Shown here: in pieces, positions 31,739 to 35,611 of the stretch
Position numbering within the stretch: the stretch's first letter is position 1
How the letters are laid out: every line of letters begins with the position of its first letter
Source of the DNA: Maricaulis alexandrii
GTDB taxonomy: Bacteria > Pseudomonadota > Alphaproteobacteria > Caulobacterales > Maricaulaceae
DNA length: 64,000 nt
Direction of reading: 5' to 3'
Assembly (NCBI RefSeq): GCF_005871165.1
Contig: NZ_SWKP01000007.1
Span: 310,001 to 374,000, forward strand
Translations under genes and position numbers: made by a program
Notes under the pieces: model-generated
Databases searched by the model: none
Seen by the model: the letters and a program-made list of their open reading frames with translations, nothing else
What the model was told of the DNA's origin: nothing

Positions 31739-32317
31739 ATGGCCAAAAAGGGGACGCTCAGCCGTCGCTCATTTCTGACACGTGTCGCCGGTGCCACGGT
31801 TGCCACAGGCGCCGGTGCCGTGATCACGGGGGCCAGCGAGGCCCAGAACTATACCGGCCAGACTGATGCCGACACGGGCAGTTATGCCGACCGCGCCGGT
31901 TATGGCCGGACGGGCCGCACTGACAGTGATGGCGGTGCCAATGCCGACCGCGCCGGATACGGCCGCGGCGGGGGCTCCACCGGTGTGACCGACAGCGATA
32001 CCGGCAATTATGCCGACCCGATCGGCAATGGTCGTGGTGGACGCACATCGGGCATCACCGACAGCGATACGGGCAGCTATGCCGACCCCGTCGGCAATGG
32101 CCGCGGCAGCCGGACGTCCGGCATCACCGACAGTGACACCGGCGCCTATGCCGATCCGGTCGGCAATGGCCGGGGCCGCTCCAACTATACCGACAGTGAC
32201 AGCGGCGGTTGCGCCGATCCGGGTGGACGGGGCCGCGGCCCGGTGCGTTCGGGCACGACGGACAGTGACAGCGGCGGCTGCTCCGACCCGGTCGGGCGCG
32301 GTCGTCCCGGCTACTGA
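31739..32317 (+). CDS. Tat-exported Asp/Gly/Arg repeat protein 1
   Basis: A 192-aa protein of no recognised family. Residues 1-36 are a Tat signal: twin arginine in LSRRSFLTR, a hydrophobic Ala/Val/Gly stretch and a likely cut near SEAQN. From residue 42 to the end it is seven degenerate repeats of 20-23 residues, each starting TD-x-D and most with a YADPVGNGRG-like core. Repeats 6 and 7 replace the Tyr with Cys (GGCADP, GGCSDP). There is almost no hydrophobic core, so it is probably disordered unless bound or modified. GGGAGG lies just upstream. It is 17 bases before a paralogous gene. Confidence 0.82.
   Translation: MAKKGTLSRRSFLTRVAGATVATGAGAVITGASEAQNYTGQTDADTGSYADRAGYGRTGRTDSDGGANADRAGYGRGGGSTGVTDSDTGNYADPIGNGRGGRTSGITDSDTGSYADPVGNGRGSRTSGITDSDTGAYADPVGNGRGRSNYTDSDSGGCADPGGRGRGPVRSGTTDSDSGGCSDPVGRGRPGY
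31862..32314 (+). repeat. In-frame tandem repeat, 7 units
   Basis: Seven units of about 60-69 bases encode the TD-x-D...ADP-x-G-x-GRG motif. Units vary at synonymous and non-synonymous sites, so the repeat is old and kept at protein level rather than a fresh DNA expansion. Confidence 0.8.
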
Positions 32318-32334
32318 GCCGGGAGGGCTGAACC

Positions 32335-33006
32335 ATGGCCAAGCGCGGAAAACTTTCCCGCCGCTCCTTCCTGATCCGAGTCGCCGGTGCGGCCCTGACG
32401 ACCGGCGCCGCCGGCACCGTCGCGGGTTGCGCCACGACCGGCTATACGGACAGCGACCCCTATGATCCCGTCGGCGGCGGCCGCGGTGGCGGTGGCTATA
32501 CCGACAGCGATCCCTATGACCCGGTCGGCCGGGGCCGCGGATCGCGCGGCGGATCCGGCGTCACCGACAGTGATACGGGCCGTTATGCCGACCCGGTCGG
32601 CAATGGCCGCGGCAATGGCTATACCGACCGTGATACGGGGACCTATGCGGACCCGGTCGGCGGCGGCCGTGGCGGCGGTGTGACCGACAGCGATACCGGC
32701 ACCTATGCGGACCCTGTGGGTCGCGGACGCGGCAGTTCGGGCGTCACCGACAGCGATACCGGCAATTATGCCGATCCGGTCGGGCGCGGTCGCGGCGGCG
32801 GCTACCGGTCCGGTGTCACCGACAGCGACAGTGGTCGCTATGCCGACCCGGTCGGAAACGGGCGCGGCGGCAATCGTGGCTCGGGTGTGACCGACAATGA
32901 TCCCTATGACCCGGTCGGCAATGGCCGCGGCGGGCGCCGGGGATCCTGCACCGACGCGGATACCGGCAGCTATGCCGACCCGGTCGGACGCGGCCGGCAC
33001 TGCTGA
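32335..33006 (+). CDS. Tat lipoprotein Asp/Gly/Arg repeat protein 2
   Basis: A 223-aa paralogue of the preceding gene. The Tat signal is nearly identical (LSRRSFLIR) but ends in a lipobox VAGC (Cys32), so this copy is probably lipidated. Nine repeats follow from residue 38. Six carry the longer TDSDTGxYADPVG form and three a shorter TD-x-DPYDPVG form. Cys occurs at the start of the last unit's linker and as the final residue. Arg-Gly content is very high and the chain is probably disordered. GGGAGG precedes the ATG. A terminator lies 15 bases downstream. Function unknown. Confidence 0.82.
   Translation: MAKRGKLSRRSFLIRVAGAALTTGAAGTVAGCATTGYTDSDPYDPVGGGRGGGGYTDSDPYDPVGRGRGSRGGSGVTDSDTGRYADPVGNGRGNGYTDRDTGTYADPVGGGRGGGVTDSDTGTYADPVGRGRGSSGVTDSDTGNYADPVGRGRGGGYRSGVTDSDSGRYADPVGNGRGGNRGSGVTDNDPYDPVGNGRGGRRGSCTDADTGSYADPVGRGRHC
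32446..33003 (+). repeat. In-frame tandem repeat, 9 units
   Basis: Nine units of 54-72 bases of the same family as in the preceding gene. The short DPYDPVG form occurs in units 1, 2 and 8, which suggests local duplication of the first two. Confidence 0.8.
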
Positions 33007-33021
33007 CCTCCTGACACACAC

Positions 33022-33059
33022 CGGGCCGGGCCTCGAACCATCGACGCCCGGCCCGTTTT
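33022..33059 (+). terminator. Terminator after the repeat-protein pair
   Basis: CGGGCCGGGC, a 14-base loop, then GCCCGGCCCG and TTTT. The stem is a perfect 10 bp. It separates the repeat genes from the JmjC gene, so the latter needs read-through or its own promoter. Confidence 0.85.
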
Positions 33060-33120
33060 CCATTCCTGACTGTTTGTACTGGCGGGCGCGCGTGTCCGCC
33101 CCTTCCCCGGACCCTGTGAC

Positions 33121-34326
33121 ATGACCGAACCGCTCTGGCTGACCGACCCCATGCGCTGCATGATCGATCCGATCGATGCCGACACCTTCTTCCGCGACTA
33201 TCACGAGAAGAAGTCCCTGATCGTCAAACGCGATGATCCGAAACGCTTCCTGGACCTGTTGAGCATCGAGCGGATCGACGAGATCGTCGCCAATCGCGAC
33301 CTGCGCGCCGGCCAGCTGGACATGGCCCGCTCGGAACCGCCGGTCTCGCCGGACCAGTACACATTCGAGACCGGCTATATCGATCGCGGCGGCGTGGCCG
33401 AGCAATACCGCCAGGGCGCCACGATCATCCTGCCGCAATTGCACATGAATGACGCCGTGCTCGGCGAGTTCTGCCGCAATATGGAAAGCCTGCTCTCCTG
33501 TCAGGTACAGACGAATATCTACCTCACCCCGCCCCACAATCAGGGCTTTCGCACCCATTATGATGACCATGATGTCTTCGTGCTGCAGGTCTCCGGCGAG
33601 AAATACTGGCGCCTTTACGACACGCCGGTCGAGAACCCCTATCGCGGCGAAGGCTTCCGACCCGAAGATCATCCGGTCGGTGAACCGGTGGAGGAATTCG
33701 TCCTGAAGGCCGGCGAATGTGCCTATGTGCCGCGCGGCCTCATGCATGATGCCTCCACCCATGGCGACGAGGCCTCCCTGCACATCACGCTGGGCCTGAT
33801 CGTGAAGACCTGGGCAGACCTCATGCTGGAGGCCGTCTCGGAAGTCGCGCTGAACCACAGCGCTTTCCGGCGCGCCTTGCCGGTCGGATTCGCGCAACCG
33901 GATTTTGATCGCCGCGAGGCCGAGGCCTATTTCAAGGACTTGATGGCTCTCGTCGCCAAGGATGCCCGCATGGATTCGGCGATGGACCTGTTCGTCGACA
34001 CCTTCATCCGGTCACGCATGCCGGCCACCTCGGGCACTGTCGCGCAGTTCGACCTGCCCCAAAAGCCCGGACAGTCCTTCAAACTGCGCCGCTTTGCGCC
34101 CTGGCGCCTGGCCGGGACCGAGAAATCCGTTGTGATCATCACGGCGGGCGGCGAGGTGCATTTCCCGCTGACAGCCGAACCGGCCCTGCACACCCTGCTG
34201 GATGGCGGCGTCATCAGCCGCGCGGACCTGGCGGACTTGCCGGATGACGAGGCCCTCGACGTTCTGGGCAAGCTTCACGCCTTCGGCATCATCACCCCCG
34301 CCGGTTGTGCCGACAAACGGTTATAA
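33121..34326 (+). CDS. JmjC/cupin-4 2-oxoglutarate-dependent hydroxylase
   Basis: A 401-aa protein of the cupin-4 (YcfD/RoxA, MINA53/NO66) family, Fe(II)/2-oxoglutarate oxygenases that hydroxylate protein side chains such as Arg or His. The iron triad is visible: His146 and Asp148 in RTHYDDHDVFVLQ, and His209 in YVPRGLMHDA. KYWRLYDTPV and SLHITLGL are typical strands. The C-terminal part (about 240-401) resembles the dimerisation and winged-helix regions of the family. No signal peptide, so cytoplasmic. It follows the two Tat repeat-protein genes, whose GRG and Asp-rich repeats are possible substrates; this is inference. Confidence 0.88.
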   Translation: MTEPLWLTDPMRCMIDPIDADTFFRDYHEKKSLIVKRDDPKRFLDLLSIERIDEIVANRDLRAGQLDMARSEPPVSPDQYTFETGYIDRGGVAEQYRQGATIILPQLHMNDAVLGEFCRNMESLLSCQVQTNIYLTPPHNQGFRTHYDDHDVFVLQVSGEKYWRLYDTPVENPYRGEGFRPEDHPVGEPVEEFVLKAGECAYVPRGLMHDASTHGDEASLHITLGLIVKTWADLMLEAVSEVALNHSAFRRALPVGFAQPDFDRREAEAYFKDLMALVAKDARMDSAMDLFVDTFIRSRMPATSGTVAQFDLPQKPGQSFKLRRFAPWRLAGTEKSVVIITAGGEVHFPLTAEPALHTLLDGGVISRADLADLPDDEALDVLGKLHAFGIITPAGCADKRL

Positions 34327-34438: not shown

Positions 34439-35611
34439 ATGCTTCTGAGAGCCCTGACATTCGGTTTAGGCCTGCTGGTCGTTTTTGGCCTGTTCTGGGT
34501 GATGTGGCCCTCGGCCATCCAGCCCGCCTATTGGGACGAACCCCAGCCGCCGGCGCTGACCGGCGCCCTGGCCCGCAATACGGCGCTCGATGCTGCGCGC
34601 CAGTATCGGATTGGCGAACCCGGCACAGCTGTCGGCCTTGTCCTGGCGCCCGATGGCAGTGTCTATTTCGGCACGCATGACGGCCATATCCACCGCTTTC
34701 TGCCGGGCCGTCCGGAAAATCCGGTTCAGGAAATCGCCCGCATCACGGACGCCCCGATTTTCGGTCTGGCCTGGGCCGGTGATGGCATGCTGGCAATTGC
34801 CAGTCTGAACGGGTTGTATGGACTGGACCTGGTCAATGGCAGTGTCGACCGGTTGAGTACCGGCGTTCCGGCCCACCCCTTCGGCTATGTGAATGACCTC
34901 ACAGTCGGCCCGGACGGCACGATCTTCTTCACGGACTCCTCCGCACGCTGGCAGATGATGAATGAGGACTCCCGCTATTTCCGGGAAATGCTGGAGAACC
35001 GTCCGACAGGCTCCATCTATGCCTGGAACCCGCACATGGAACAGACCATCCTGCTGCGGGACCGCCTCTATTATCCCAACGGGATCACCCTGGCGCCTGA
35101 CGGTCAGTCCCTGTTGATCGCGGAGACTTTCCGGCACCGGATTGTCCGGTTGCAGCTGACCGGCCCGCGGGCCGGCGACCTGGACGTCCTGGCGGAGAAC
35201 CTGCCGGGCTATCCCGACAGTCTCACCCTGGACCCGCAGGGCCGGCTGGTCATTTCGATGCTGACGACCCGGGATCCGGCACTGCGCCTGCTGCACCGCC
35301 ATCCGGCCCTGGCCGAGCTCTACACGAAACTCCCGTCATGGCTCCGCCCCAACCTGGGATCCGCCGACGGTTTTCTGCTGGTGATGAATCCGCGGACCGG
35401 TACGGTTCTGGAGACGCTCTATTCCGGCGATAGCCGCTTCTGCCTGCTTTCGGACGCGGAATTCGGGCCGGCGAACTCCGTCTGGCTGGGCTCGGTCAAT
35501 TGCGGCTATATCGCCCGCCTGCCCGGGTGGAACACCGATCTGGAGACCCACCCGAACAATCCGGAAAACCTGTCACTCCCCAATGGGGTCGACTCGGACT
35601 TTCCCGGTTAG
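34439..35611 (+). CDS. Membrane-anchored SMP-30/strictosidine synthase-like beta-propeller
   Basis: A 390-aa protein. An N-terminal hydrophobic helix (residues 3-22) anchors it to the membrane. A six-blade propeller follows with typical blade turns: [34 protein letters not shown], and [17 protein letters not shown]. This resembles strictosidine synthase-like/APMAP and SMP-30 lactonases. A lactonase or esterase role is plausible but unproven. It follows the JmjC gene by 112 bases. Its stop overlaps the tkt stop by 4 bases, tail to tail. Confidence 0.82.

Follow-up and report, generated by a model that had tools for sequence, protein, structure and literature searches.

We analysed a 64,000-nucleotide stretch of the Maricaulis alexandrii genome (contig NZ_SWKP01000007.1, positions 310,001 to 374,000), here called the window. 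Two tandem genes encode the repeat proteins A and B, and the gene that follows encodes a JmjC oxygenase dependent on Fe(II) and 2-oxoglutarate (2OG), which is the presumed modifying enzyme (Table 1). Proteins A and B are paralogues with the common N-terminus MAK[KR]G.LSRRSFL. A first-pass annotation, made by a model from the letters of the window, had described two paralogous twin-arginine proteins with 16 repeats, and the translations and tandem arrays bear this out. The unit TDSDTGxYADPVGNGRG occurs seven times in A and nine times in B, where three of the nine copies have a shorter 14-residue form, TDxDPYDPVGxGRG. The repeats of protein A follow the pattern T-D-x-D-[TSG]-G-x-x-A-D-x-x-G-x-G-R. 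The alpha-type repeat peptide is TDSDTGSYADPVGNGRG, and the gamma-type peptide is GTDSSDQSGGE.

Table 1. Genes and sequence features of the repeat protein/JmjC locus (positions in the window)
Feature	Positions	Strand	Remarks
Repeat protein A	31739..32317	+	ATG at 31739, 192 amino acids (aa); twin-arginine signal, then 7 repeats
Repeat protein B	32335..33006	+	ATG at 32335, 223 aa; twin-arginine signal, lipobox-like VAGC, 9 repeats
Intrinsic terminator hairpin, then UUUU	33022..33055	+	Separates repeat gene B from the JmjC gene; minimum free energy -29.8
JmjC (JmjC_2/cupin-4) Fe(II)/2OG oxygenase, presumed modifying enzyme	33121..34326	+	401 aa, PF08007
Iron ligands H146 and D148 (HxD)	33556..33564	+	Invariant alignment columns
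Third iron ligand H209	33745..33747	+	Invariant alignment column

Protein A has a signal-peptidase-I-like cleavage site (ASEA↓QN), judged by eye, and reached the cut-off of TIGR01409, a model of the twin-arginine translocation (Tat) signal (17.6 bits; cut-off, 16.7). Protein B gave no match in this search, so that the cut-off was reached by protein A only. The lipobox-like VAGC of protein B, which was absent from the first-pass annotation, places a Cys at position 32 (codon 32428-32430), and from LSRRSFL together with VAGC, protein B is predicted to be a Tat lipoprotein. Between repeat gene B and its closest relative, 81 synonymous and 12 non-synonymous codon differences were counted over 223 codons; the repeat genes are thus conserved as proteins, and this codon pattern indicates that they are coding and that purifying selection acts on them. 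The repeat region of A and B had no match in Pfam, NCBIfam or PDB except weak Tat-signal models and one chance-level match. TSP3, RTX and EF-hand were therefore not assigned as the repeat family; the D-x-D-x-G...D of the repeats may resemble a calcium loop. The window genome has a further repeat gene elsewhere (G000:C1:144688-145020, L079; G and L numbers are our handles for genomes and loci), the product of which ends in a charged tail that looks coiled-coil-like by eye. A further such repeat gene in a relative (L082) encodes a product with a C-terminal tail of the same appearance.

The JmjC reading frame matches PF08007 (JmjC_2) with an E-value of 8e-28 and 96.9 bits against a cut-off of 22. 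H146, D148 and H209, as well as the 2OG-binding Lys (K161), are invariant across 26 aligned JmjC orthologues, which agrees with the intact iron triad noted earlier. The triad and the 2OG Lys are 100% conserved in the linked set, and equally so in 31 paralogues. The linked subfamily has conserved residues of its own, such as Q130, T131 and W231. Among solved structures, NO66 and MINA53 are nearest in sequence (E 2.6e-30 to 4e-29), whereas the YcfD type (4csw) is only a distant match (E 6e-4); this corrects the earlier comparison with YcfD, and the enzyme is not specifically YcfD-like. The NO66 alignment, inspected for the central dimerisation and C-terminal winged-helix domains of ROX-type enzymes (ROX, ribosomal oxygenase), spans only residues 13-301 of the 401-aa protein. 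The sole other JmjC_2 trace found in the 3.35 Mb genome falls under the family cut-off. The terminator that had been placed between the repeat genes and the JmjC gene is real by its folding (z-score -4.93; 0/200 shuffles equally stable), and it escaped a simple terminator scan, which was limited to loops of 3-8.

Co-occurrence of the two kinds of gene was examined in three overlapping genome draws, from the family (99 genomes), the order (299) and the class (385). The repeat protein and the JmjC protein were each searched singly in the family draw, with a JmjC threshold of E 1e-10. For the order and class draws, the queries were two alignments, A2 with 22 repeat proteins and A3 with 26 JmjC proteins; the JmjC threshold of the order draw was E 1e-5. 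Up to 10 (order) or 7 (class) repeat candidates and up to 6 or 4 JmjC candidates were scored per genome. In the family draw, repeats were found in 30 genomes and a JmjC match in 33, of which 31 had a close form (44-100% identity) and two only a distant paralogue. The 31 include every one of the 30 repeat genomes; the remaining one (G002) is a contig-edge miss, as its JmjC gene begins at contig base 6. Repeats were found in 57 genomes of the order draw and JmjC in 83, the scores of which form two groups: 300 bits or more in 59 genomes, and a best match below 170 bits in 24. The class draw gave 11 genomes with repeats, 12 with a JmjC score above 300 bits and 40 with scores below 175 bits only. 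Every repeat genome fell in the high-scoring group in both draws (57/57 and 11/11), and no repeats were detected in the genomes that hold only other JmjC paralogues (2 in the family, 24 in the order and 40 in the class draw). Conversely, repeats were detected in 30/31, 57/59 and 11/12 genomes with the JmjC subfamily; the order value counts as misses both G241, whose repeats were later seen at a contig edge, and G334, which is cut by a contig edge. Fisher p-values, which ignore shared ancestry, were 1.5e-24, 1.6e-59 and 2.0e-20 for family, order and class. Together the draws hold 72 distinct repeat genomes. All of them carry the linked JmjC subfamily, and in 72/72 the listed coordinates put a repeat gene no farther than about 1 kb from the JmjC gene. 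The first-pass annotation had proposed to check whether a JmjC gene adjoins the repeats more often than by chance, and this held in 30/30, 57/57 and 11/11 genomes. It had also named repeats usually without a neighbouring JmjC gene as the contrary outcome; what we found was that detected repeats stand only beside this subfamily.

A scan of GTDB contigs with A3 confirmed 365 relatives, the best 80 of which served as named loci. These 80 include Maricaulis, Hyphobacterium, Hyphomonadaceae, Brevundimonas, Peiella, Parasphingopyxis, Pseudohongiella and other Gammaproteobacteria, and the pair is present in Caulobacterales, Sphingomonadales and Gammaproteobacteria. An Asp-rich repeat gene adjoins the JmjC gene in 74/80 loci. 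In 69 of them it is upstream on the same strand with a gap of 7 to 842 bp, often below 50 bp, so a shared transcript is possible in many lineages and the objection raised by the terminator is local. The automatic rule gave 70/80. L152 was removed, since its sole match is no repeat gene, and five loci were added by eye: L157 (masked run), L165 (KRSFL in place of RRSFL), L186 (convergent, downstream), and L192 and L196 (contig edges). L169 is among the 69 through a chance RR, and its repeat proteins carry KRSFL. Nearly all repeat genes of the 74 have a twin-arginine-type signal, in the form KRSFL in L165 and L169; at the contig edges L192 and L196, no signal was seen on the repeat gene. The usual order is repeat gene then JmjC gene, and it is reversed in G330, G354 and G568. 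As a control, the neighbourhoods of 31 distant JmjC paralogues were inspected, seven of them in genomes that have the linked pair as well, and none has such a repeat gene.

Two further observations were made among these loci. A contig labelled Dehalococcoidia (Chloroflexota; L158) has the JmjC/repeat pair, and its enzyme is sister to that of the gammaproteobacterial L189, with end branches of about 0.09 each; the contig is probably misbinned. In Parasphingopyxis (L195, L199, L203, L205 and L206), three to four differing repeat genes stand in tandem upstream of JmjC, one of which often has an extra acidic stretch behind the signal.

Several observations weigh against a dedicated pair. Because only the first candidates per genome were scored, absence in the order and class draws means that a gene was not found and is not proof. 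L152, L172 and L191 have the enzyme with no repeat gene detected and are true misses, and none was detected in G539, where the contig ends 82 bases past the JmjC match; three more of the 80 loci (L153, L167 and L204) lie at contig edges and are uninformative. The tree speaks for the pair: it groups the linked JmjC proteins, together with the four exceptions, in a single clade (support 98/95) that excludes all 31 paralogues, several of which are long-branched. The exceptions are scattered within the clade. In most Maricaulaceae loci, the pair has ruv genes and tkt as flanking genes. As this neighbourhood is largely one inherited block, these genomes are not independent events, and adjacency within Maricaulaceae was rejected as stand-alone proof.

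The ruvBAC-tkt block, conserved across Maricaulaceae with the JmjC gene inside it, would also fit an ordinary ribosomal oxygenase (ROX) with the repeat genes as passengers. The enzyme has a ROX-type sequence and triad, and no second JmjC_2 protein above the cut-off was found in its genome. However, the pair is present, absent and moved jointly across orders and classes. In G034, G044 and G088 (genus g5), G041 and G059 (g14) and G030 (g15), ruvC and tkt adjoin each other, with their matches 41 bp to 1.9 kb apart, and the pair is missing from the interval; other members of these three genera carry both genes. Joint loss or, in part, joint gain may account for this. The negative loci fetched numbered 15, and in the 9 besides these 6 no tkt match was seen within the stretch. 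The gene directly after JmjC (34439-35611) was matched in 12/30 family loci, as against 29/30 for the repeats, some loci being shortened by contig ends. Outside this block, the surroundings of the pair differ. We also compared, across 43 loci, the open reading frames (ORFs) that reach 120 aa, leaving out frames that overlap JmjC or the repeats. No third family emerged, as none found in at least four loci spans more than two of eight lineage groups; the ruv genes are common to groups f1 and f4 only, and no dedicated protease or exporter was seen among these ORFs. Finally, the linked JmjC subfamily was unmatched in 68/99 family, 240/299 order and 373/385 class genomes, which is unexpected for a general-use ribosome enzyme. 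These results make the passenger explanation highly improbable. The first-pass annotation had linked enzyme and repeats from adjacency, and this link is upheld because the pair co-occurs across lineages.

Co-occurrence alone does not distinguish a substrate from another kind of partner, such as repeats that supply metal to the enzyme or sense oxygen for it. The N-terminus of the enzyme has no apparent export signal by eye, so the enzyme should be cytoplasmic, whereas the repeat proteins carry Tat-type signals. Extra repeat genes lie away from the enzyme gene in several genomes, as expected of substrates modified in trans. We consider a partnership of that kind very unlikely, and the genomic pattern suggests that the repeats are very probably the substrate of the JmjC enzyme.

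Export of the repeat proteins is predicted to use the general Tat route. In Maricaulis and genus g8 (L049-L065), the repeat gene nearest JmjC has the lipobox form in 17/17 loci and the farther ones have no lipobox; membrane-anchored and free forms are therefore apparently both kept. One repeat protein encoded away from JmjC (L277:1861-2697, G486) ends in PG_binding_1 (1.7e-18), which hints at cell-wall localisation. In one class-level group (L265, L268, L270-L272 and L277-L280), a segment of the form L-x-D-[DEQN]-[DEQ]-I, for example TLRDEDIVS, stands before the twin arginine, and this segment may be an enzyme-recognition leader.

As candidate sites of modification, the first-pass annotation had offered Arg, Asp and Pro. 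We scanned 395 17-residue repeats, in which [TS]D.D and D10 were required. Conservation was 97% for G6, 96% for G13, 100% for G15, 93% for R16 (368/395), 74% for P11 and 27% for N14, and the repeats are nearly His-free. Drift has changed the repeats of many Gammaproteobacteria to GTDSSDQSGGE or SDSDSSDQSGR. Pro was rejected as the modified site in view of its 74% in the scan and its absence from the core in 9 of 14 gammaproteobacterial proteins. Arg is absent from the core in five of these 14 (L159, L161, L163, L168 and L197), with the enzyme still adjacent. Asp accounts for 17 to 33 per 100 residues in these five cores and for 13 to 33 across all 14 proteins. The cores of L159, L161 and L168 lack all of Arg, Lys, His, Pro, Asn and Tyr, with Asp at 17-19 per 100, and L197 is an irregular Asp/Glu-rich sequence. 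In G663, a short Tat-type frame ahead of a second enzyme has SDYDPNDPIGG units, and this stretch is free of Arg. That Arg is lost and Asp kept beside the enzyme favours Asp over Arg and Pro, and if the chemistry is the same throughout, Asp is the best candidate residue.

In a variant of the same system, the Arg of G-x-G-R would be modified, as YcfD modifies Arg81 of ribosomal protein uL16, next to a stretch rich in Gly and Lys. Some observations speak for this variant and against Asp. Besides the frequency of R16, the core has Arg at 1 to 8 per 100 in 9/14 gammaproteobacterial proteins, and 13/14 keep GR near the C-terminus. Asp conservation in the scan is built in, because D2, D4 and D10 were required. 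In the cited parts of two papers, known ROX enzymes act on His or Arg and not on Asp (PMC9994133), and the YcfD of Rhodothermus acts on the Arg in ...VRMGKGKG... (PMC5862935). The variant is nevertheless opposed by the five Arg-free cores described above and by the closest solved relatives of the enzyme, which are His hydroxylases; according to the part of PMC9994133 that covers these, MINA53 and NO66 neither accepted Arg peptides as substrates nor were inhibited by them. Modification of Arg thus appears unlikely. The residue counts leave Asp as the favoured one of the three candidates, with Arg less likely and Pro unlikely, and they lean, with some reserve, towards Asp being modified to beta-hydroxyaspartate.

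We propose that the JmjC oxygenase would hydroxylate repeat side chains of the neighbouring Tat-targeted proteins before these leave the cytoplasm, in which Fe(II), 2OG and reductant would be available to it. The Tat route would afterwards export the modified, probably unstructured Asp/Gly-rich chains; one form would be anchored as a lipoprotein, and others would be soluble or wall-associated. Conversion of Asp in the T-D-x-D...D-x-x-G core to beta-hydroxyaspartate would turn the repeats into chelating arrays, which might bind Ca2+ or Fe. Arrays of beta-hydroxy-Asp would be good metal ligands. As a whole, a dedicated JmjC hydroxylase with Tat-exported repeat proteins as its substrates is a likely reading of these genomic data. 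Quite possibly, though the case is short of even, the multiply Asp-beta-hydroxylated repeats form an oxygen-dependent, Ca/Fe-chelating polymer on the membrane and wall of Alpha- and Gammaproteobacteria and make up a class of envelope proteins not described before. Metal binding in the envelope, taken by itself, is put forward tentatively and with some doubt. No description of a JmjC/repeat pair was found among the matches listed in the literature searched (open-licence PMC papers), which suggests that the dedicated-pair system is previously undescribed.

To our knowledge, bacterial JmjC proteins are common and few have known substrates. Through this pairing, an entire JmjC subfamily acquires a candidate family of substrates, and the proposal is directly testable with one peptide and one enzyme. 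If it is true, the roles of bacterial JmjC enzymes would extend to the hydroxylation of repeat proteins ahead of Tat export, and possibly to that of Asp.

Like NO66/RIOX1, MINA53/RIOX2 and YcfD/RoxA, the enzyme has a JmjC_2 domain, an HxD...H triad and a 2OG Lys. Unlike them, it forms its own clade and appears dedicated to a genomically linked, exported repeat protein, and the near lack of His in the repeats sets it apart from the His hydroxylases NO66 and MINA53. The repeats themselves resemble the YcfD substrate peptide, which is described as Gly-rich beside the Arg in the cited part of PMC5862935. Comparison can also be made with ribosomally synthesised and post-translationally modified peptides (RiPPs). 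The corallotide graspetide has a large precursor with five repeated motifs that are hydroxylated by a dedicated 2OG oxygenase, CorC, and in this it is like the present pair. In contrast, CorC belongs to PF13640 and not to JmjC, and it hydroxylates Lys after macrocyclisation by a graspetide synthetase, as far as the relevant passages of the source state (PMC13097080). The same passages mention SmaO, an aspartate beta-hydroxylase of a graspetide cluster, which is a precedent for modification of peptidyl Asp in a bacterial ribosomal peptide; unlike here, no repeats or Tat signal are mentioned where it is cited (PMC13097080). BipG, the JmjC ornithine hydroxylase of the biphenomycin RiPP, is likewise encoded with the ribosomal peptide substrate that it hydroxylates, but according to the cited portion of the report that substrate is a small processed antibiotic peptide with many co-enzymes (PMC12707348). 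The present system comprises just two kinds of gene, and its repeat proteins are long, putatively hydroxylated and predicted to be exported by Tat. Its layout is RiPP-like all the same: a precursor with a conserved N-terminal region and a repeated core is encoded adjacent to its putative modifying enzyme.

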